A stretch of DNA of 64,000 bases from Planctomyces sp. SH-PL62 (lineage in GTDB: Bacteria; Planctomycetota; Planctomycetia; Isosphaerales; Isosphaeraceae): the NCBI RefSeq assembly GCF_001610895.1, contig NZ_CP011273.1, forward strand, positions 1,984,001 through 2,048,000. The letters are read 5' to 3'. The translations under genes and the position numbers were made by a program. Position 1 is the first letter of the stretch; each line of letters begins with the position of its first letter. Shown here piece by piece: positions 7,072 to 29,204 of this stretch. Below the pieces are notes generated by a model, which had not been told where the DNA came from, made no database searches, and saw nothing but the letters and a program-made list of their open reading frames with translations.

Positions 7072-9165
7072 ATGGCCGCGTTCGTGGGGATCGACCTGGG
7101 GACGACGAATTCGGTCGTGGCGCGGCGCAACGCGTACGGGCGGCCGGAGGTGGTGCCGAATCGCGAGGGGGCGAACATCACGCCGTCGGTGATCTACTTC
7201 GGCGTCGACCCGCCGGCGGTGGGTCAGGAGGCGAAGGAGTGGGCGCGGCTGGGGGACGCCGAGATCGCCAGCTTCTTCAAGCCCCACATGGGGAGCCCCC
7301 TCTATCAACTGGAGTTCCACGGCAAGCCCTACTCGGCGACCGACCTGTCAGCCCTGGTTTTGAGGCGTCTCAAGGAGGACGCCGAGGCCGCGATGGGCGA
7401 GGAGGTGGACCGCGCGGTCGTCACCGTGCCGGCCTACTTCGGCGACGCCCAGCGCAAGGCGACGATCGCCGCGGGCGAGGCGGCCGGGCTCCGCGTCATG
7501 CGGATCATCAACGAGCCGACCGCCGCCAGCCTCGCCTACGGGCTGAGCCGCACGAGCGACGTCGACGAGACGATCCTCATCTACGACCTGGGGGGCGGGA
7601 CGTTCGACGTCACCGTGGCCCGGATCACCCCGGAGGACGTCGCGGTCCTCGCCACGGCCGGCGACCACGACCTGGGGGGCAAGAACTGGGACGATCGCAT
7701 CGCCACGTTCCTCGCCGAGAAGTTCGCCGAGGAGACCGGCTTCGACCCGCTCGACGACCCCGTCGCCCTCAACGAAGTCCTCGTCCGCAGCGAGCAGGCC
7801 AAGTGGACCCTCTCCGAGCGGGCCGCCGCCCGCGTGACGCTCCAGCTCGGCGCCGAGCGCAAGACGTTCGAGATCACCCGCGACGAGTTCGAGGCGATGA
7901 CCGCCCCGTTGATGGACCGCACGCGGAGGCTCACCGAGGAGGCGCTCGGCGAGGCCGGCCTGGCGTGGCCTCGGGTCGACGGCGTCCTGCTCGTCGGCGG
8001 CTCGACACGCATGCCGATGGTGCGGACTTACGTCGCCGGGATGGCGGGCAAGGCCCCCCGCACCGGCGTGAACGTCGACGAGGTGGTCGCCCTCGGCGCG
8101 GCCGTCCAGGCGGCGATGGAGGCCGGCGAGGCCATCGGCGACGCCCTGCCGAAGTTTACGCTCGGCATGACCGCGAGCCCCCCGCCCGTCCCCGTCCGCC
8201 GCGTCGTCGACGTGATGTCGCACAGCCTGGGGGTCGTCGCCGTCTCGCCCGACGGCTCGTCGTACGTCAACGACCTGGTCATCCGCCGCAACGTACCGAT
8301 CCCCGCCGCGGACGTCCGCACCTACCTGCACGCGACCCACGGCGGCGAGAACACGAAGCTCGAAGTCTATCTGACCCAGGGAGAGAGCGTCACACCCCTG
8401 GATTGCACCATCCTGGGGAAGTACGTCTTCAACGGCATCGCCGCGACCGACGCCGAGGTCGCGGTCGACGTGGGCCTCTCCTACGACGCCGACGGCGTGG
8501 TGCAAGTCCGTGCGACCCAGCGCGACAGCGGCCACCGCCTGGCGATGACCGTCGAGCCCGTCCCCGACGACCTCTCCTGGCTCGCCGGCCCTCCGAAGGT
8601 CCACTCGACGGACGAGATCGGCGGCAAGATCCGCGTCATGCTCCTGGTCGACGGCTCATCGAGCATGATGGGCGACCCGCTGGCCGAGGCCCAGAACGCG
8701 GCTCGCGAGTTCCTGGACCGCTGCGACTTCACGACGACCGAGGTCGGCCTGATCTCGTTCGCGACGCTCGTGACGCTCCAGGCCCCCGCCACCAACAACG
8801 TCCGCCGGCTGCACGCGGCGATCCACCGCCTGGAGGCCGAGGGGAGCACGAACCTGGCCGACGCCCTGGAGCTGGCCCGCGGCGAGCTGGTCGCCGACGA
8901 CGCTCGGCGGTACATCGTCCTGCTCACCGACGGCTATCCCGACGCCGCCGAGGCCGCCGTGGAGCAGGCCGAGGCGGCGCGGGCGCAGGGGATCGAGATC
9001 GTGGCGATCGGCATGGGGACGGCCGACCGCGAGTACCTCGGCCGACTGGCCAGCAGCGAGGCCGCCTCGATCTTCGTCAAGGGGGGCGAGCTGGTGCGGA
9101 CGTTCGGCCACATCGCCCGCGTGATCGCCGAGGGGGGCCGTTCCTTGAGGGTCCTGAGCCGATGA
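7072..9165 (+). CDS. Hsp70-VWA fusion protein
   Basis: A 697-residue protein. Residues 1-500 are an Hsp70 ATPase plus substrate-binding beta domain (FVGIDLGTTNSVVA, DLGGGTFDVTVA, VGGSTRMPMV, SHSLGVVAVSPDG). Residues about 520-690 form a von Willebrand factor A domain with an intact metal-binding site: D527-x-S529-x-S531 in LLVDGSSSM, plus a downstream Thr (EGSTNLADAL) and Asp (LLTDGYPD). The VWA domain replaces the Hsp70 lid. VWA domains bind protein ligands through a metal ion, so the fusion may couple chaperone cycling to binding a partner; that is inference. The stop overlaps the next start (ATGA, 9162-9165), indicating translational coupling. No signal peptide, so probably cytoplasmic. 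Confidence 0.93.
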   Translation: MAAFVGIDLGTTNSVVARRNAYGRPEVVPNREGANITPSVIYFGVDPPAVGQEAKEWARLGDAEIASFFKPHMGSPLYQLEFHGKPYSATDLSALVLRRLKEDAEAAMGEEVDRAVVTVPAYFGDAQRKATIAAGEAAGLRVMRIINEPTAASLAYGLSRTSDVDETILIYDLGGGTFDVTVARITPEDVAVLATAGDHDLGGKNWDDRIATFLAEKFAEETGFDPLDDPVALNEVLVRSEQAKWTLSERAAARVTLQLGAERKTFEITRDEFEAMTAPLMDRTRRLTEEALGEAGLAWPRVDGVLLVGGSTRMPMVRTYVAGMAGKAPRTGVNVDEVVALGAAVQAAMEAGEAIGDALPKFTLGMTASPPPVPVRRVVDVMSHSLGVVAVSPDGSSYVNDLVIRRNVPIPAADVRTYLHATHGGENTKLEVYLTQGESVTPLDCTILGKYVFNGIAATDAEVAVDVGLSYDADGVVQVRATQRDSGHRLAMTVEPVPDDLSWLAGPPKVHSTDEIGGKIRVMLLVDGSSSMMGDPLAEAQNAAREFLDRCDFTTTEVGLISFATLVTLQAPATNNVRRLHAAIHRLEAEGSTNLADALELARGELVADDARRYIVLLTDGYPDAAEAAVEQAEAARAQGIEIVAIGMGTADREYLGRLASSEAASIFVKGGELVRTFGHIARVIAEGGRSLRVLSR

Positions 9166-18687: not shown

Positions 18688-20604
18688 ATGCATTCCGGTC
18701 ACGACGGATCGAACGATTCCGCCAGCGCCGCCGCCACGTCCGCTCGCCGGAGCGGGGGGCGAGGCCGACGATCGCGGCGGTTCCGGCCGACCGCCGAACG
18801 CGTCGAGCGTCGAGAGCTCCTGGCCGCGTTCGGGCTCGTCGCCCACGGCGTCGTCGAGAGGGTCGCGCTCCCCCGGGCCATCCCGGCCCTCGACCCCTCC
18901 TCGACGATCAGCGTGACGGGCCTGGACGTCTCCACCAAGGCCGGAGGGCTGTTCAACGGCGTGGTCGCGACGTTCCAATCGAGCGACCCCGAAGCCAGGG
19001 CCGCGGACTTCACCGCCACGATCGACTGGGGCCCCGGAACGACCACCAACGCCGTCGTCCGGGCGGCGGATGGCGGGGAATTCGAGGTCGTCGGCGCGTA
19101 CTCCTATTCCGGCCCCGGTTCCTACGCAATCAGGACGACCGTGTCGGGCGGCACTGGGATATCAGGGGCCTCGCTCGCCACGGCGACCATCGCCGCTCAG
19201 CCCATCGAGGTCGTCGCTTTGGCGATTACCGCCGAGCCCGGCGGCTTGTTCAACGACACGGTCGCCACCTTCAAGTCCACCGCGCCTCCGGCCGAGGTCC
19301 AGGCGGGGAATTTCACCGCTCTGATCGATTGGGGCGACGGGACGACTCAGGAGGCCGTGGTGCAGCCGGCCGGCGATTCGGGCTTCCAGGTGCTCGGCTT
19401 TCACACCTATCCCGTCGCCGGCTCCTACCCCGTTACGACGACGGTGGTGGACCACGTCCGCAACACCTCGGCCAGGGTTCTCGCCACCGCCACGATCGGC
19501 ACCCCCTCGATCAGCCTGACCGCCTCGTCGTTCGCCGCGCAGCCGGGCGTACCGGCGACCCCGGCGGTAGCCCGGTTCACCTCGACGGCCCCCGGCGCGA
19601 AGGCCGCCGACTTCACCGCCACGATCGATTGGGGCGACGGGACGGCCCAGACGAACGGCGTGGTCCAGGAGGTTGAAGGGGGGAGCTTCGAGGTCAAGGA
19701 CACGCATACCTACGCCGTCGCGGGGGAGTTCCCCGTCCGGGTGACCATCGAGGACGGCATCCGCAAGCAGACGGTCGTCTCGCTCGCGACGGCCGGCGTG
19801 GGCCGGCTCGTCGCCCCGTTGACGGGCGGCCTGGCTCCGTCCAGCGACAGCGGCGTTTCCGGTTCGGACGGGGTGACGAACGTCAGCAGGCCGACCTTCC
19901 TGGGCTCGTCGACGCCCTGGGCGGTCGTGCAGCTTTACGCCGTGCGGGCGTCGTCCTGGCCCACGGAGACGCGGCTGCTCGGCCAGGCGATCGCCGGCGG
20001 CGACGGGACGTGGTCGCTCACTTCGGCGTTCCTGCCCGACGGCGTCTATTCGGTGACGGCCGTGCAGACCCCCTCCAAGGGCTCGCCGAGCCAGCCGGTC
20101 GTGCTGGTCGACTCCTTGACGATCGACACGATCGGTCCGAGGGTCCACGGACTGGCGTTCAACCCCAAGAACGGCACGATCACGACCGTCATAAGCGACG
20201 TCGGGGCCGGGCTGGACGAGTCCTCGGCGCAGGATCCGACCAATTACACCGTGATCCCACCGTCGACGATCATCGGCGTGCATCCGGGCCGCGGGGGAGG
20301 GCAGAATCCGTTCCAGTCGCCGGCGATTTCGGGATTCTACAGCGACGCCTCGGCGTACACGATCCAGCTCGACTTCGGCGGTGGCGAGGGCCGACGTTGG
20401 TCGCGCGGGCGCTACATGTTCCAGGTCCGTTCCGGAGGGGTCGTGGATCGGGCGGGGAACGCGCTTGATGGCGAATTCACCGGGGCCTTGCCGTCGGGCG
20501 ACGGGGTCCCCGGGGGCAACTTCATCGCCAAGCTCATCAACAACCAGAAGGCCAGGCCTCAGCCCCGACGGGCGGCGCCGCCGCGATTCGCCGGCCGGGG
20601 TTGA
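18688..20604 (+). CDS. Surface protein with PKD/Ig-like repeats and LEPR-like motif
   Basis: A 638-residue protein. The basic N-terminus ends in RVERRELLAAFG, a variant of the planctomycete LEPR-x-LL(S/A) motif. Three consecutive repeats of about 95 residues (from about 72, 170 and 270) each contain AADFTATIDWG(D)GT or a close form and end in a (T/S)Y.V.G.(Y/F)...V strand, which fits PKD-like or Ig-like folds. A fourth bacterial Ig-like domain (about 380-490) has GTWSLTSAFLPDGVYSVTAVQT. A Big-type domain (about 495-610) mentions LDESSAQDPTNYTV, as in autotransporter-like filamentous proteins. The basic tail is RRAAPPRFAGRG. It is probably an adhesive or matrix protein; the ligand is unknown. 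GGGAG precedes the start. Confidence 0.85.
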   Translation: MHSGHDGSNDSASAAATSARRSGGRGRRSRRFRPTAERVERRELLAAFGLVAHGVVERVALPRAIPALDPSSTISVTGLDVSTKAGGLFNGVVATFQSSDPEARAADFTATIDWGPGTTTNAVVRAADGGEFEVVGAYSYSGPGSYAIRTTVSGGTGISGASLATATIAAQPIEVVALAITAEPGGLFNDTVATFKSTAPPAEVQAGNFTALIDWGDGTTQEAVVQPAGDSGFQVLGFHTYPVAGSYPVTTTVVDHVRNTSARVLATATIGTPSISLTASSFAAQPGVPATPAVARFTSTAPGAKAADFTATIDWGDGTAQTNGVVQEVEGGSFEVKDTHTYAVAGEFPVRVTIEDGIRKQTVVSLATAGVGRLVAPLTGGLAPSSDSGVSGSDGVTNVSRPTFLGSSTPWAVVQLYAVRASSWPTETRLLGQAIAGGDGTWSLTSAFLPDGVYSVTAVQTPSKGSPSQPVVLVDSLTIDTIGPRVHGLAFNPKNGTITTVISDVGAGLDESSAQDPTNYTVIPPSTIIGVHPGRGGGQNPFQSPAISGFYSDASAYTIQLDFGGGEGRRWSRGRYMFQVRSGGVVDRAGNALDGEFTGALPSGDGVPGGNFIAKLINNQKARPQPRRAAPPRFAGRG

Positions 20605-20611
20605 GGTCGGC

Positions 20612-21475
20612 TCAATTCTCCCGTTGGACGGTCGGCTGCGCGTCGAGGGCGGCAGGTTCGGTGAGCCTCGCCTCCTCGGCTCGGGCCTGGGTCTGCGCGG
20701 CTCCCTCCTGGTGGGCCTGCTCGGCGAGGCTGCCCAGCGGGGTGGCGCGGAGTGCCCGCGAGGCGCCGTCGGTCGCGGTGCGACGGGCTTCGCGGAGGCC
20801 CTGCCTCGCGCCGGCGAGGAGGCGACGGCTCCGATCGCCCAGCCGACGATCGGGCTCTGGGGCCCCCTCGATGCGGTTCACGCCGTTGGCCTCGTCCCGC
20901 TGGCGAGCGCCCGCCTCCTTCATCCGCGTCGCGCCGCTTTCGCTCAGGCGGCCGATCACGCCCCCCCTCGCCCCCTGGCGATAGACGATCTTCGGCGGGC
21001 CGTGCTTGCCCGTGCCGAAGAAGATCTTGATCCCTTGCGGGCCATAGTCGTACTCGATCGAGCCGGCGTCGTAATAGACGCGAGGCGCGCCCGGCGGCAA
21101 GGTGGCCTCAAGGTAGAGCCGCTCGCCGGTCCTCGGGTGGTTCACGACGAGGATGCAGGGGCCGCCCGGCATCATCTTGAACTGGAACGATCGGTCGCCC
21201 GAATAGTAGTAGCGATGCACCAGCACCAGGCGCGGGACGTCGACGAGCATGCGCCCGTCCGGCCCAGGCGTCAGCTCGACGGCCGGATTCCCCACCGGGT
21301 CGGCGTTGGGGTCGAGCATCTCGATCTCCTGCCCGGGCGGCACCGGGGCCGATCGCGGCGGGCCGTGGCCGGCGGACCCGAGCGACGATCGGAGCAACGA
21401 CTGCGCCGACGCTCCCGACGCCGCGCCCCACCAGCAGGCGATCGACAAGGCGCAGACCAGCGTGCGACGAGCCAT
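20612..21475 (-). CDS. Exported protein of unknown function, last gene of the secretin-like cluster
   Basis: A 287-residue protein with a signal peptide (about 1-24, ending ASAQS). The middle contains beta-rich unclassified sequence (RLVLVHRYYYSGDRSFQFK, GPCILVVNHPRTGERLYLE, GSIEYDYGPQGIKIFFG). The last 100 residues are charged and helical (RLLAGARQGLREARRTATD, AEQAHQEGAAQTQARAEEA), likely coiled coil. I do not recognise the family. GGGAGGGAGCT lies before the ATG at 21475; a longer frame upstream is Arg/Pro noise. It is 41 bp downstream of the next minus-strand exported protein and probably co-transcribed with the giant secretin-like gene. Confidence 0.78.
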   Translation of the reverse strand: MARRTLVCALSIACWWGAASGASAQSLLRSSLGSAGHGPPRSAPVPPGQEIEMLDPNADPVGNPAVELTPGPDGRMLVDVPRLVLVHRYYYSGDRSFQFKMMPGGPCILVVNHPRTGERLYLEATLPPGAPRVYYDAGSIEYDYGPQGIKIFFGTGKHGPPKIVYRQGARGGVIGRLSESGATRMKEAGARQRDEANGVNRIEGAPEPDRRLGDRSRRLLAGARQGLREARRTATDGASRALRATPLGSLAEQAHQEGAAQTQARAEEARLTEPAALDAQPTVQREN

Positions 21476-22379: not shown

Positions 22380-25300
22380 TCACCGTCCCCGGAGCCGCGA
22401 GAGGAGGCTCTTGCGGGGGCCGGGGGATGCATCGCCCGCCGAATTCGCGGGGGCGAGCGTCGCGGCCGAGGCCTGGCGCACGGCCGGGTCGACGATCGTC
22501 GTGGGGCGGGGGATCGAGGAGGTCCTCGGGGCGGCGGACGGCGGGATCGAGGCCGGACGAGGCGCCGAGGCCGGCGATCGAGCCGGGGGTGTCGTCGCGG
22601 CTCGGGTCGCGGCGGGGCTCGGCCGGGCGTCTGATGCGGCGCGAGCCGGGGCGACCGGCGGCCGTCGCCAGTTGGTGGGGACGCCCCCCGCCGGGGTCCG
22701 CTGCGCGGCCCCCTCGTCCGAGCCCGGCGGGACGAGCGCCGGGGCCGGGGCCGCGTCGGGCAAGGGATCGAGGGTGAACGGCGAACGCTCGTCGAGCGGT
22801 GCGGACTTCAGATCATCGTTCTCAAAGGGCGAACGCTCGCTCGTCGGTGCAGGTTTCAAATCCTCGTTCTGGAGCCGCGAGGTTCCTCCCGGCGGCGGTT
22901 TCCTCCGGCTGGGCTCTGCCGCGTCGGGCCGATCGAAGCCTCGCAAGGGTGGATTCGGAGGAGCGACTCCTGCGTGGGGGGGACCCCCATGCTCCGGCAT
23001 GATCGGGGCTCCTCCCAGAGGGCGCCCTTCCGGCATGAGAGCCTCCGCCGGGCCCACGGGGAGGCCGACGTCGCCCGCGGGGAGGCCCAGGTCGCTGGAC
23101 GACGAGCTGGGGACGTAGGGGGTCGGCGGGTTCATGGCCTCGGGGTCGTATCCCTCGCGGAGCGGGCTGTCCTTGAGGTTCAGGCCGGGGCCGCGATAGC
23201 CGTTGGGATGGACGTCCGGGATCGTCTCCTGGCTGCGATAGAGATCGGTCCGACGTTCGGCCGCCGGGGTACGGATGAAATCGTCGACGCGCGACGACGA
23301 GCTGTCGAACGCCCGGTTGGAGACCTCGCGCTGACGGCCCCGGACGACGAAGTCGTCGTTGCGGAGCCGGAGCGTATCCAGATCGGCCACGGCCGGCGCC
23401 CAGCGCAGGCCCATCAGGTCGAACAGCGTCGGGAAGATGGCGCTGTGGGCCATGACGATGTTCTCCTGGAGCGACGATTCCGCGTTCGGTAGCGGCCGAA
23501 AGAGTACGCCGAGACCCGGCACATCCTCCAAGAGGGGTACCCCGCGACTCGTCCGCGACGCCTTGAGCGCGACCTGATAGGTACTCACCTCGCGCAGCTC
23601 GTAGTTCGTGAGCTGGACGGGGGTGTGGATGAAGTGGCGCTTGACGCGACCCAGGTGCTTCTCGTCGGCCCGGACGGGCTCGCGGACGTTCGTCGTGTAC
23701 ATATAATTGAAATCGAACGTCACGGCCTGGCCGTCGGGCTGGAGGACCGGGCGGACCTCGTAGCCGGTTCCGGTCTCGAACTTGTAGACGGCCGGGTCGG
23801 GGATGAGGGCCTCCAGGGCCGACCCGAACTCGCGGCGTCCGGGGCCGGCCTGGCGGAGCACCTCCTCGTCGTCGTTGCGAGACAGTTCCGGCAGCACGCT
23901 CCGCACGGCGCTCGCGCCGCCCCCCAGCGTCCCCTGGGCCAGAGAGCTGGTCGGCTGGCCGCTGCGGAGCTTCGTCAGCGACAGGAACGTGGGGTCGTTC
24001 AGCAGCGCGCCGTACTCATCGACCAGCGCCTTGGCGCCGTTCATGGCCTCGGTGATGAGGATGTCGCGCTTGGGGAGGTCGAACTCCATCGTCGCGGTGG
24101 GGTCGACCTTTCCGAAGCCTCGGTTGTTGGTCAGGACGCTGGTCTTCTCGATCTGCGCGAGCTGCACGTCCCAGAACCGGCTGGCCTCGCGAATCCGGCG
24201 GAAGGCCGGGTCGTAATACTGGGTGTTGAAGTCGTCGTCCAGGGCCGTCGCCAGCGCCTTGATGAAGCCGTCCATCACCGCGATGTGCGAGCGCGTCCCC
24301 TCCAGCAATTCGATGTACTTGTCCTCCATGTCGTCGATGTGCATCTCCAGCAGCTTCTTGTGGTCGAAGGCGGAGCGCGCCTCGCGGAGGGCCTTGTCGG
24401 CGAACTGTCGGCGGAGGTTGGCTTCCATCAGCGGCCGGAAGCTCAATTCGATCTCGTTGAAGATGACGTCTGACGTGGCGCGGAGGCTGCCTTGCACCCA
24501 GTTCTCGACGATCGCCCGGATGAGCTGCACCTCACGATGGAGCGCCTTCGGATCCACCTCGCTGTCGCCCAGATTCGCGTTCAACGTATTGAACTTGGCG
24601 ATAAAGCCTTGCATCTCGGCCTGAATGTGTTCGAGCACAGGCCTGTAGGCGAAGAGGAGCGCATGCAATTGGCTGAAATGTGTAAAGTTCAGCTTCTCGC
24701 CCGGCCGCACCTCCCTTAATTTCCGCAACGTCTCGACCTGTGACTTGACCCTCGCATTCATCGAGGGATCGAGCGCGAACTCACTGAACAGGGCGTCGTT
24801 CATATTCCCCGCAAGGTCGACCCACTTGCCGAACATCACGCCGACTTCGGCCAGGACCTGATCGCCATCGACCTCCCCGACCGGCTCGAGTTCCAGAAGA
24901 TCTCCTACGAAATGGAACCTCACCTTGGCCCTGCCAACTGAGACGGTGAACTCCTCGGATGGCTGATCGTTCTTCTGATCAGGAGCATTCAAGAAGCCGT
25001 CCTGGCTCATCAAATCCTTCATTTCGGGAATATTGATATTCGATTCGGACTTCTTGACCACCGATTTATATTGTTCGAGCGCCTTCTCAAGGTCCCGAAG
25101 TATGGTCCTGGAGGAACTTGCGTCCGGCGAAGCCGCCCTGTAACGCGCGACCTGGTTATTCACATCCGCCCTAATGCGACGCGCGTCGTCGACATTCGCC
25201 AGGATTCGGATGTTCTCCAGTTGCGCATAAAGCTCCTGGCTCTCGCCGATACGATTTTGAATCCCCGCGATCTGGGCGCTGAGCGGGGCGAACGCGGCGA

Positions 25301-28300
25301 GGATCCGGGTCCGCTGCTGGTTCAGGGCTTCGAGCTGGGTGGCGAGGGCCTTCTCGGCGGCTTCCTGGCGGTCCTTCTGTTTCTGGAGTTCTTCCAGGCG
25401 GTTGCCCAAGCGTTCCTCGATGATGGCGCGTTCCTTGACGCGCTGGTTGAACTGCATCTCGGTGACGAGGCGGCTCTTGAAGATCTGGGCGAGGCGGATG
25501 AACTCGCGCTGGATGGGATTGAGAGTGTCGTTGCCGTCGAGCTGGTGGTCGAAGTAGCCGATCAGCGACTGGAACCGTGCGTTGTTCGCGAGGAAGACGA
25601 AGTCGTCGTTCTTCTTGTGGGGATGGGCGTGCTTCTTCTTGGGGTCGCGGTCGCCGCCGGCCTCGTAGTAGTTCATCTCGGCGGCGGGGAGTTCGGCGGC
25701 GAGGCTGGCGCGGAACTCGTCGAGAATCTCGACGCGGGTCTCGTTCTTGGCGAGGGCCATCAGGAACAGGGCCGAGGCGAGGCTGGTGGAATCCATCGAG
25801 TGCAGCGAGAGGACCTTGTTGCCGGATTTGAGGAACTCGCTGTCGATTTCGATCAGCTCGCGGAGGAAGTCCTCGCCGAAGAAGGCGGCGATGTACTTCT
25901 GGTCGCGGGTCTCCTGGCTCGCCCCCTCGGGGCACTCGGCGGCGGCCTCGACCGCGCGACGCGCGGCGACCTTGACCACGGCGTTGCGGAGGTACTGGCC
26001 GGACTGCATCGTCAGGAAGCGGGAGTGGTCGATGTAATCCTTGATCCGCGAGGCCACCTTCTCCATGCGGTCGCCGTGCTCGCCGTTGATCTGGACGGTG
26101 TGGATGGCGATGCGGACCTGGCCGGCCGGGCCGTCCAGCTCGTTGATCATCTTGCGGACGATGTTGACCCCCTTCATCGGCCCGCGAAGCTGGATGAGGG
26201 CCTCGCCGACGACGGCGACCGACACCTGTTCGACGGGGTCGATCGACCTCGGGTTGCCGGGGGCGAAGGTGTCCGGGTCCTCGTGGGCGGCGGCGACCTC
26301 CAGGCGGAACTGCTGCTCGCGGGCGCGGTCCTCGTCGAACCCTTCGCGGGCGGACTCGATCCGGGCGGCGGCCTCGGCCTCGCGACGGGACTGGACGAGG
26401 TTGCGAGCGGCGGTGACTCGGTCCTGGGCCCCGCTCAGACCGTCGACCGATTCTGTCTCGTCGCGGGTCGCTTTCTCTAGGGCGATGTTCAGGCCGTCGA
26501 CCTGGGCCTGCGCCTGGAGGGTCCGCTCGGCCGTGCCGACCGGATCGGCGGCCTTCGCCGCAGTCAGTTCGTTCTGGGCGGCGGTGAGATCCGCGCGAAG
26601 CCTGGGGATGCGGCCGACGGCCTGCGCGCCCCGGGCCTGGATCGTCCCCAGGGCTTGCTGGGCCTGCTCCAGCTCGCGCTCGGCGGCGCGGGCCTCCTCG
26701 GCGGCCTTGATGGCGGTCATCTCCTGGATGCGTCGGGTGTCCGTCAGGCGGTCGGCCTCGCGGCGGGTCTCCGTGGCCAGCCGGCGACGGGTATCGACGG
26801 CCACCCGGTTGTACGACTCGACGTGCCGGTTGACGATCTGCGCCACTCGATGCGCATCGCGGTTGTAGTAGAGCCGGACGACGCGGGTCTCCACCTTGTC
26901 GGACGGATTGAACCCGTTGGTCGGGTCCCGGGGCGAGACGAATTCGGGGTAAGCCACGAAGGGCGCCTGGCGAGCCGGCGGGATCGGCGCCAGCTCCAGC
27001 GCGGCGAGCCGATCGCGAGACGTCCCCCCCGCGCCGCCTCCGGCCGTACGCTCGAACATCCGGATCAGGCCCCGTTCCGAATCGCCCTGGACTCCCTGGA
27101 TCGGATTGCCGTAGACGTCTCGCAGCGCGGCCACGCTGGCGGTCAACTCGACGCGGTAATTGCCCGCGATAAGATCCGAGATTTTGATCAGGATCGAGTT
27201 CGTCGGTTCTTCATAACTCACGGTGTACTTGCTGGGGTCGACCGGCGCGTACTTCCCTCCGGCCCCGGCGAGGCTGATGCTGTAATTCGTGGGCTCCTCG
27301 ACGGCCGACTTGAGTAGTTTGTTCCCCCGGAATCGGATCGTGAGCGTCTGCTCGCCGGCCACGACGCCGAAGTCGTAGGGGACGTACTCCTGGATGACCG
27401 GCCCGCTTCGGCGGATCGAGAGCTGGTAGGGCTTGGTGGCATCGGTCCGCGGCGTGCGCTGGAAGTCGCTTCGCGTGGCCCCCTGGATGATCTCAGCGCG
27501 GAGGAGGAAATCCCCCTCGGGTAGGTCGCCGGTCGTCAGGGTCCACGTTCCGTCGTCCTCGGGGGCCGTCACGCCAATCGGCACCTGGGAGTCCTGGTGG
27601 AAGACCGCCACGACCGCCCCGGCCTGAACGGCCGCCTCGGGCACGCCCGCCCCCGCGATCTTGACGCGCTTCGACGCGGTGAAGATGTGTCTGGGGTCCG
27701 CAGTCCCGCCGTCGGAGCCTGCCGAGGACGTGGGCTCGGGCTCGACGCTCGACAGCGTGGGCGGGACTCGGTCCGGGTCGCCCAGCGCCGTCCGTTCCAC
27801 CGGCACGGCCAGCGAGAACGCCTGCCCGTCGGGCCTCTCGTCGATCGCGAAGAGGTGGGACGTCACCTGATCCGGCTGGGGAGCACCCGCGTCGAAGTCG
27901 AGATCCACGTCCCAATCGCCCTTGCTGGACCGCCGCCACGTCCTCGCCCTGGCGTCGTCGGCCCGCCTGATGAAGACGTCCTGGTCTCCGGTCGGGTTGA
28001 AGACGGCGAATTTCAGCGTCTCGGCCGAGCCCGTGGCACCGGCGAGCCGCAGGTAGCCATCGACCGACTCGATCGGGTCGGAACCGGAGATCGGCCCGAC
28101 CGGCTCGATGAACAGGTTTTGGGAGGCCCGTCGAACGGTCGGCCGAGCGGTGACCCCACGCGGATCCTGCAGCAGGACGCGGACGCCGGTCCCGTCGCCC
28201 GAGGTCAAGTCCCAGGCGTCGACGACCCGGATCCGTCGCCTTCCACCGGCGTTCGCATCCAGGGGAATCACGACTTCGGCAGGGGCGGTGGCTGGATCCT

Positions 28301-29018
28301 CGGCGGGCAGACTTCCCAGCACGTCGTCGGCGTCGTCGAGCACGACAAGTTGCCGTCCTCCATGTCCCGTCACGATGACGGAGAGGATCGCGGCCGGATT
28401 GTTGCGGAACTCCCCGCCCCCCGGAATGGGCAACCTCGTCTGATAGAGCGCAGGTCCCTGGATCTTCTCCTGGAAACCTGCGATGCGTGGTTTCCGCACG
28501 GTCCGAATCGGCGCGACCTGGATCACAAGCTGATCGGGGGTCGCTTGACCGAGCCGACGAACCGTGTACTTCCCGCTCGAAGGCAGGGTCGCAGTGAAGG
28601 AATCGCCCGAGGCCGTTCCCATCGCGACCGGCAGCCTCGGGGGAGTGGTGCGCTCGAACTCGTACTCCGCCGGGTCGATTGCACGCCCCTCGTCGGTCTT
28701 CAGCGTCACCGTGACGTCTAGACCCGAGTCCGCGTTCGGCGGTAGACCGGTGACCTTGAACGTCCGCGCCTCAACCTCGGTCGCGGGCGAGCCCTGCTCT
28801 CCGACCACGGCGGCCGACAGGAACGCCGGAGCGATGCCGCCGGCCGGCGTCACGGCCTCGTCGCGCTTCGGGTCGGGCGACTGCGTCAGGATGGGCTCGG
28901 TCGCCTTCCGCGAATCCACAACGCCCGTCGACTTCCAGTAGCCGGCGACCAGGCAACACGCCATGAAAACAAAGAGGATCGGCTTTATTACAGAATCAGG
29001 CCGAGACATCCTTGTCAT
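22380..29018 (-). CDS. Giant secretin-like protein with coiled-coil insertions
   Basis: A 2,212-residue protein anchored or exported through a hydrophobic segment at about 10-28 (ILFVFMACCLVAGY). Ig-like domains cover about 85-165 and 440-640. At about 708-732 VETRVVRLYYNRDAHRVAQI looks like the first half of a secretin N1 domain. It is interrupted by about 180 residues of coiled coil and resumes at about 929 (VSVAVVGEALIQLRGP, then LDGPAGQVRIAIHTVQING, the usual entry to the secretin domain). Long helical/coiled-coil stretches fill about 1000-1700. Near the end GYEVRPVLQPDGQAVTFDF (about 1752) and VPLLEDVPGLGVLFR (1827-1841) match the secretin C-terminal signature. The last 350 residues are Pro/Ser-rich. 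Typical secretins are 400-800 residues. ATG 29018 has GGAG upstream. It may form an outer-membrane pore; no secretion ATPase or platform gene is in the window. Confidence 0.72.
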   Translation of the reverse strand: MTRMSRPDSVIKPILFVFMACCLVAGYWKSTGVVDSRKATEPILTQSPDPKRDEAVTPAGGIAPAFLSAAVVGEQGSPATEVEARTFKVTGLPPNADSGLDVTVTLKTDEGRAIDPAEYEFERTTPPRLPVAMGTASGDSFTATLPSSGKYTVRRLGQATPDQLVIQVAPIRTVRKPRIAGFQEKIQGPALYQTRLPIPGGGEFRNNPAAILSVIVTGHGGRQLVVLDDADDVLGSLPAEDPATAPAEVVIPLDANAGGRRRIRVVDAWDLTSGDGTGVRVLLQDPRGVTARPTVRRASQNLFIEPVGPISGSDPIESVDGYLRLAGATGSAETLKFAVFNPTGDQDVFIRRADDARARTWRRSSKGDWDVDLDFDAGAPQPDQVTSHLFAIDERPDGQAFSLAVPVERTALGDPDRVPPTLSSVEPEPTSSAGSDGGTADPRHIFTASKRVKIAGAGVPEAAVQAGAVVAVFHQDSQVPIGVTAPEDDGTWTLTTGDLPEGDFLLRAEIIQGATRSDFQRTPRTDATKPYQLSIRRSGPVIQEYVPYDFGVVAGEQTLTIRFRGNKLLKSAVEEPTNYSISLAGAGGKYAPVDPSKYTVSYEEPTNSILIKISDLIAGNYRVELTASVAALRDVYGNPIQGVQGDSERGLIRMFERTAGGGAGGTSRDRLAALELAPIPPARQAPFVAYPEFVSPRDPTNGFNPSDKVETRVVRLYYNRDAHRVAQIVNRHVESYNRVAVDTRRRLATETRREADRLTDTRRIQEMTAIKAAEEARAAERELEQAQQALGTIQARGAQAVGRIPRLRADLTAAQNELTAAKAADPVGTAERTLQAQAQVDGLNIALEKATRDETESVDGLSGAQDRVTAARNLVQSRREAEAAARIESAREGFDEDRAREQQFRLEVAAAHEDPDTFAPGNPRSIDPVEQVSVAVVGEALIQLRGPMKGVNIVRKMINELDGPAGQVRIAIHTVQINGEHGDRMEKVASRIKDYIDHSRFLTMQSGQYLRNAVVKVAARRAVEAAAECPEGASQETRDQKYIAAFFGEDFLRELIEIDSEFLKSGNKVLSLHSMDSTSLASALFLMALAKNETRVEILDEFRASLAAELPAAEMNYYEAGGDRDPKKKHAHPHKKNDDFVFLANNARFQSLIGYFDHQLDGNDTLNPIQREFIRLAQIFKSRLVTEMQFNQRVKERAIIEERLGNRLEELQKQKDRQEAAEKALATQLEALNQQRTRILAAFAPLSAQIAGIQNRIGESQELYAQLENIRILANVDDARRIRADVNNQVARYRAASPDASSSRTILRDLEKALEQYKSVVKKSESNINIPEMKDLMSQDGFLNAPDQKNDQPSEEFTVSVGRAKVRFHFVGDLLELEPVGEVDGDQVLAEVGVMFGKWVDLAGNMNDALFSEFALDPSMNARVKSQVETLRKLREVRPGEKLNFTHFSQLHALLFAYRPVLEHIQAEMQGFIAKFNTLNANLGDSEVDPKALHREVQLIRAIVENWVQGSLRATSDVIFNEIELSFRPLMEANLRRQFADKALREARSAFDHKKLLEMHIDDMEDKYIELLEGTRSHIAVMDGFIKALATALDDDFNTQYYDPAFRRIREASRFWDVQLAQIEKTSVLTNNRGFGKVDPTATMEFDLPKRDILITEAMNGAKALVDEYGALLNDPTFLSLTKLRSGQPTSSLAQGTLGGGASAVRSVLPELSRNDDEEVLRQAGPGRREFGSALEALIPDPAVYKFETGTGYEVRPVLQPDGQAVTFDFNYMYTTNVREPVRADEKHLGRVKRHFIHTPVQLTNYELREVSTYQVALKASRTSRGVPLLEDVPGLGVLFRPLPNAESSLQENIVMAHSAIFPTLFDLMGLRWAPAVADLDTLRLRNDDFVVRGRQREVSNRAFDSSSSRVDDFIRTPAAERRTDLYRSQETIPDVHPNGYRGPGLNLKDSPLREGYDPEAMNPPTPYVPSSSSSDLGLPAGDVGLPVGPAEALMPEGRPLGGAPIMPEHGGPPHAGVAPPNPPLRGFDRPDAAEPSRRKPPPGGTSRLQNEDLKPAPTSERSPFENDDLKSAPLDERSPFTLDPLPDAAPAPALVPPGSDEGAAQRTPAGGVPTNWRRPPVAPARAASDARPSPAATRAATTPPARSPASAPRPASIPPSAAPRTSSIPRPTTIVDPAVRQASAATLAPANSAGDASPGPRKSLLSRLRGR
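24570..25260. other. AT-richer patch inside the giant gene
   Basis: Within the giant gene this stretch of about 700 bp is visibly poorer in GC than its flanks (for example GGAATATTGATATTCGA near 25030 and CGATTTATATTG near 25062). It encodes about residues 1250-1480 of the helical region. The reading frame is uninterrupted. GC content was judged by eye, not computed. Confidence 0.55.
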
Positions 29019-29204
29019 CGGGTCGCTCCGGGATCGAGAGGGGCCTGGACATCGCACGGCGCAAGCGCACGAATATCCCGTTTATCGACCGAAGCGTTCT
29101 CTTACTCCATCGGGCTCAAACGTTTTTGCCGGCCTCAACGAAATCGACGATTTTGCGGGATCCAGGGAAAGCACAAGGCGAGCCGTGAAAACGGCCGAGG
29201 CGGA

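Follow-up and report, generated by a model that had tools for sequence, protein, structure and literature searches.

Protein S is a giant secretin-like protein encoded in a 64,000-nucleotide stretch of the genome of Planctomyces sp. SH-PL62 (the window). S appears to belong to the secretin superfamily as a divergent member in which an N domain, entry strand and C-terminal gate with its lip are retained and two large helical blocks have been added. Judged by sequence comparison, S and its relatives appear to form a real, unusual branch of this superfamily, accompanied by a conserved cassette of exported-looking proteins. The homology of S to secretins is considered highly probable, with the evidence leaning on the lip motif. 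Descriptions of secretins place them at the outer-membrane end of a small number of motor-driven machines, and a motorless branch with helical towers and a conserved exported cassette would widen this picture. S scores below the standard cut-off of the secretin family PF00263 and is therefore probably annotated as a hypothetical protein. A literature search, mostly of papers outside subscription, found no description of such a protein.

Architecture of S and its family

The features of S and its three partner genes are listed in Table 1. The initial annotation had described a frame of 2,212 residues with secretin-like motifs, and this description holds. The frame is single, starts with ATG and contains every quoted motif: YYNRDAHRVA (from residue 717), HRVAQIVNR (723), VEQVSVAVVG (929), QVRIAIHTVQ (967), GYEVRPVLQ (1752) and VPLLEDVPG (1827). 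An alternative in-frame GTG start at 29057 would give 2225 aa. The G+C content at third codon positions is 0.69-0.97 in all 22 blocks of 100 codons, as expected for one coding gene. In the 28-row family alignment (27 members and L009, which is cut off by a contig end), mean column conservation is 0.54-0.75 at residues 701-750, 901-1100, 1551-1650 and 1751-1850 of S, and only 0.13-0.14 at residues 1251-1400. Since the motifs fall in the best-conserved blocks, they represent more than chance. Conservation across the family is particularly high in the lip and the strand preceding it.

Table 1. Positions in the window of S, its parts and its partner genes.
Feature	Coordinates	Strand	Basis or remark
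S, giant secretin-like protein, 2212 aa	22380..29018, stop codon included	-	frame, G+C, family alignment
N-terminal hydrophobic segment, residues 9-27	28938..28994	-	hydropathy 1.96 over 19 residues
Variable N-terminal region, residues 35-690	26949..28916	-	without Pfam match; short or absent in compact members
Candidate first half of secretin N domain, residues 709-745, RVVRLYYNRDAHRVAQIVNR	26784..26894	-	conserved in family, weak secretin match
First helical insertion, residues 746-918	26265..26783	-	modelled as two helices
N domain second half and secretin entry strand, residues 919-985	26064..26264	-	profile comparisons, HofQ match
Second helical insertion, residues 986-1630	24129..26063	-	both ends conserved, middle variable
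Divergent secretin domain, residues 1747-1842	23493..23780	-	PF00263 positions 55-149
Lip motif VPLLEDVPGLGVLFRPL, residues 1827-1843	23490..23540	-	motif location, profile tests
C-terminal tail, residues 1960-2212	22383..23141	-	proline-rich, conservation poor
Partner A, 584 aa	29205..30959	-	signal-like N-terminus; N-part variable, C-terminal domain conserved
Partner B, 264 aa	21517..22311	-	signal-like N-terminus; 68 bases downstream of S
Partner C, 287 aa from conserved start	20612..21475	-	signal-like N-terminus, VHRYYYSGDRSFQ domain; 41 bases downstream of B

The proposal that insertions split the secretin modules was likewise upheld. The coil separating the N-domain halves is 173 residues long in S, with a range of 87-270 in the 27 members. 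For the stretch at residues 1000-1600, the length is 600 residues in S and 265-636 in the members. The family ranges from 820 to 2369 aa. Four compact members (820-891 aa) have coils of 87-90 residues, second blocks of 265-266 residues and almost no N-terminal extension. The intermediates L088, L089 and L087 measure 1232-1411 aa and the giants about 1420-2369 aa (L007 being cut at a contig end); in these two groups, the coil measures 116-270 and the second block 292-636 residues. The family grows through two helical insertions and an N-terminal extension.

In two intermediates (L088:4128-7823 and L089:3680-7819), PDZ matches were observed in the N-terminal part, above the cut-off of 27 only in L089 (35.0 bits). 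The PDZ domain is known from GspC.

In structure modelling with AlphaFold, residues 686-1880 of S (8 alignment rows) gave a mean pLDDT of 56 without a barrel, and residues 1545-1895 (7 alignment rows) gave a pLDDT of 36 with an unusable barrel. The usable confidence of the large model is confined to helices. Residues 733-823 and 830-912 are modelled as a helical hairpin, with mean pLDDT mostly 74-86 per 10-residue block; at 0.15 nm per residue, the predicted hairpin in the first insertion would be roughly 13 nm long.

Relationship to known secretins

Homology of the C-terminal part to secretins had been proposed at the outset, and the relatives bear it out: PF00263 matches 22 of the 27 members at E<=1 (best 6.4e-8), and one of these, the compact L016 (820 aa), reaches 32.4 bits, above the curated cut-off of 27.5. 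S itself gives 15.2 bits (E 0.017) over residues 1747-1842, below this cut-off. The match begins at profile position 54-57 in S, L016, L088 and L087, and the first third of the domain is replaced or unrecognisable in S. No other Pfam family is found in more than three of the 27 members; matches to FCH, HetE-N, RepB_C and SMC-like families were discounted as helix-composition noise. Among the NCBIfam secretin models, PilQ matches 17 of the 27 members, SctC 13, MshL 10 and HofQ 4, and positions 161-202 of the HofQ model match residues 939-981 of S, the junction of N domain and entry strand. The Pfam scan gave no PF03958 match in S or the family members, and S shows no evident counterpart of the GGL signature strand found in PF00263 secretins. 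In a PDB search, the top matches are nine designed beta-propellers, via their 22-31-residue repeats; these were discounted as repeats of one short strand match, each of 5-7 bits. Thirteen secretin chains rank after them (E 0.03-0.65).

In hhalign comparisons with 17 secretins, the C-terminal part of the family scored 80.7 (shuffle maximum 18.4 in 10 shuffles and 21.4 in 20), an insert-free composite 93.8 and the second half of the N domain 36.1 (shuffle maximum 15.0 in 20 shuffles). As a control, partners B and C gave no match to this set. Apart from L001 and L002, the templates (15 of 17) had been picked with the C-terminal profile of the family itself; of 25 secretins, 8 with a mislocated, duplicated or cut lip had been left out. 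The first result looked too strong because of this template choice, and two unselected sets and HMM searches were added; the N-domain result cannot be biased by templates picked with a C-terminal profile. Against 12 sequences chosen by PF00263 (L111 being wrongly extracted), only 21 lip columns align (48.5 versus at most 26.2 in 20 shuffles); the score of the N domain, 11.0, falls within the shuffle range. In the comparison with 11 L002-type secretins, the C-part reaches 31.6, with 31.3 for shuffles, and the lip-free part lies within the shuffle range.

The HMM searches covered 733 ORFs. The HMM of the whole C-part spans the secretin domain in L104 (4.6e-4), L115 (9.3e-4) and L105 (2.9e-3), all absent from the family-profile picks among the matches listed. 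The lip-free HMM found the strand preceding the lip in the secretins L094 (E 0.096) and L062 (E 0.15); its best matches also include the unrelated ORFs L108 (0.39) and L122 (0.62), and in group B four of eight matches are ORFs without the lip motif, two of these being the same secretin strand. The N-domain/entry HMM matches N domains in L052 (9.7e-5), L104 (0.07), L058 (0.11) and others. The lip-free and N-domain profiles find the right places in ordinary secretins, weakly.

The match of the N-domain/entry profile to the corresponding region of secretins agrees with the position first assigned to the entry strand. The split N1 domain proposed with it stands in part. The second half and the entry strand are supported as a secretin match on the 17-template set and not on the two unselected sets, whereas the assignment of the first half is weak: on one template, this half alone scored 16.1, with a maximum of 11.3 among 10 shuffles; it was not above shuffles on two others and brought no gain in the joint score, and its HMMER matches are as frequent elsewhere as at the expected place. 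As to an isolated lip motif, which had been named as a point against secretin homology, the lip is dominant (none of seven fragments matched PF00263 after lip removal), yet it is not wholly isolated.

Like the PF00263 secretins (GspD, PilQ, SctC, MshL, HofQ), S has a probable N domain followed by an entry strand, an apparently exported N-terminus, a C-terminal strand, a TP-like final strand and a lip. Unlike these, S has an unrecognised first third of the domain, two helical insertions (87-270 and 265-636 residues in the family), three unknown partner genes and no ATPase in the window. The claim that known secretins are three to five times shorter than S had to be given up, as ordinary planctomycete secretins reach 1415 aa (L094) and 2084 aa (L092); the sheer length of S is not the surprise. 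S shares class, size and the secretin C-domain with these two. Unlike S, they have full PF00263 domains (137.0 bits in L094 and 156.5 bits in L092), and their length comes partly from 5 and 7 Secretin_N stretches, respectively, whereas S grows by helical blocks. These ordinary secretins lie at L094:1650-5897 and L092:133-6387, and open frames near their length recur in other genomes of the class.

Gene cassette and distribution

The partners A, B and C look exported, based on signal-like N-termini judged by eye. Of the 26 relative loci, 20 have C beside S, 14 have B and 13 have A. The gene order A-S-B-C occurs in 13 loci including the window, A-S-B in L072 and S-B-C in L005, and C lies upstream of S on the same strand in seven loci (C-S). 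The giants are found in cassettes of the A-S-B-C or the C-S type. Six loci lack C: the four compact ones, L007, where S leaves the contig, and L072, where the stretch ends in B. At E<=0.1, Pfam gives only weak lectin-like and noise matches for the partners, in three copies of A, two of them laminin-G-like and below cut-off; the window copy of A has no Pfam match. In a maximum-likelihood tree rooted on the compact members, a clade of L080, L007, L008, L083 and L090 has a support of 97; the support of the A-S-B-C group is only 31, so a single origin of this group is not shown.

The N-terminus of several A-S-B-C members (e.g., L006, L015, L076) is hydrophobic without an evident cleavage site, a lipobox-like cysteine closes the hydrophobic segment in L003 and L072, and AXA-like sites occur in several C-S and compact members (L008, L087, L090), all judged by eye. 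Most A-S-B-C members appear to be held at the N-terminus by a lipid anchor or by a membrane anchor that is not cleaved off. The hydrophobic segment of S was judged by eye to be a signal anchor or signal peptide, with no clear AXA site.

The genome contains two ordinary secretins above the PF00263 cut-off (L001, L002) and eight matches to the assembly ATPase family PF00437; none of the eight lies in the window, and the nearest is about 175 kb off. Two PF00437 ATPase clusters were observed at genome positions 2222888-2225686 and 3916795-3921474, and neither secretin found adjoins them.

A pattern-based scan of named genomes gave seven loci and was the only route by which phyla beyond Planctomycetota were reached. 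A profile of the C-terminal part (A2) matched 69 of 397 genomes of the class at E<=0.001. At least 44 of the 397 are clear carriers (E 3.4e-13 or better) and 25 are weak matches (8.3e-7 to 8.1e-4); since six candidates were scored per genome in the profile searches, carrier counts are lower bounds. Ten of 24 weak matches were scanned, of which nine are ordinary secretins above the PF00263 cut-off and one is a PSD1/laminin-G protein. In a draw of 392 genomes from the phylum, at least 38 matched, and all six clear matches belong to the window's class, which fits the view of S as planctomycete-specific, within the searches made. A 30-genome search with a 210-aa query matched four genomes including that of S (candidates fully scored among the matches listed). 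S was found in none of five same-genus genomes, and no relatives were found in plasmid records. From the 44 clear carriers, 20 stretches were taken in one round and three in another. L073 and L074 (from the genomes of L006 and L008) and duplicate copies of the window and of L003, L004, L007 and L015 were not counted, and the truncated L009 was kept only in the alignment and its segment and N-terminus tables. One locus, L005 (JABMRB010000982.1), is a 7.8-kb contig labelled Candidatus Nealsonbacteria with a planctomycete-type S-B-C order, and is probably mis-binned.

Possible functions and alternative explanations

The preferred reading, held at even chances, is that S is a motorless secretin-type gate or tether of the outer membrane. 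S would form a multimeric ring in the outer membrane, with one helical hairpin of ~13 nm per subunit extending from the N domain into a tall periplasmic collar. The helical block of roughly 600 residues may replace the first part of the barrel domain and act as a cap or collar. Since the N-termini in most A-S-B-C members are anchor-like, the chain may link the gate, across the wide periplasm of planctomycetes, to a membrane, and A, B and C could be ring partners or surface subunits. With no assembly ATPase linked, the proposed role of the complex is that of a tether, or of a gate that is passive or opened by a ligand, and not that of an ATPase-driven exporter. In an extended form, which is speculative and unlikely, S would span the envelope, with its N-terminus in the inner membrane, hairpins across an enlarged periplasm and an outer-membrane gate, as a motorless macromolecule channel together with A, B and C. 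If true, this would add a new class of secretin machine to those of type II, type III, type IV pilus and phage export, and would be a candidate explanation for how some planctomycetes take up macromolecules, a process so far unexplained.

A secretin-derived S could also be no channel at all, with an altered C-domain that inserts in or binds the outer membrane and helical blocks that serve as an envelope tether or scaffold. The replaced or unrecognisable first third of PF00263, the long predicted helices and the lack of a linked motor would suit this, but the strong conservation of the lip and its preceding strand suggests a kept gate, and this alternative is given an appreciable minority chance. 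It is rather improbable that an ordinary type II or type IV pilus machine, with its genes at another site of the genome, uses S as its outer-membrane secretin, despite the eight ATPase matches beside only two ordinary secretins and the PDZ matches in L088 (subthreshold) and L089 (above threshold). The window has no PF00437 ATPase, and A-C match no Pfam family at E<=0.1 save for the weak matches in three A copies. PF00263 counts in family f1 (2, 2, 2, 4 and 3 in carriers; an average of 2.6 in 16 non-carriers) indicate that S replaces no secretin. Outside f1, the means are 8.6 in 15 carriers and 7.0 in 12 non-carriers. On these counts, the idea of S as a substitute for an ordinary secretin was dropped.

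The dominance of the lip in the secretin matches leaves room for a convergent lip motif in a protein that is no secretin. The tests on the unselected sets raised this alternative and took the preferred reading from slightly better than even to even chances; a separate match of N domain and entry strand in the correct order and the one member above the curated PF00263 cut-off (L016) make convergence very unlikely all the same. Least probable of all, and hardly credible, is that S builds crateriform pits, a link that the initial annotation had suggested. As far as the available part of the source goes, such pits join the outer and cytoplasmic membrane and bear fibres in two species (PMC5394234), and the accessible portions of species descriptions give pits as a typical feature, Isosphaeraceae included. 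Such a joint would be a fitting place for a long, anchored secretin, and the proposed S outer-membrane complex would contact the inner membrane like the crateriform structures of Planctopirus limnophila and Gemmata obscuriglobus. Unlike these typical structures, S appears too patchy for a general component (44 clear carriers among 397 class genomes, none of five same-genus genomes), and the suggested link is not supported.

The available part of PMC5394234 leaves open by which route macromolecules pass through the outer membrane of planctomycetes. The S cassette would be a concrete, deletable candidate for such crossing in carrier strains. Two further genes of the window were observed on the plus strand: downstream of the cassette, a protein that carries Big_13 and PKD domains (18688-20604), and a von Willebrand A domain fused to an Hsp70-like protein (7072-9162).
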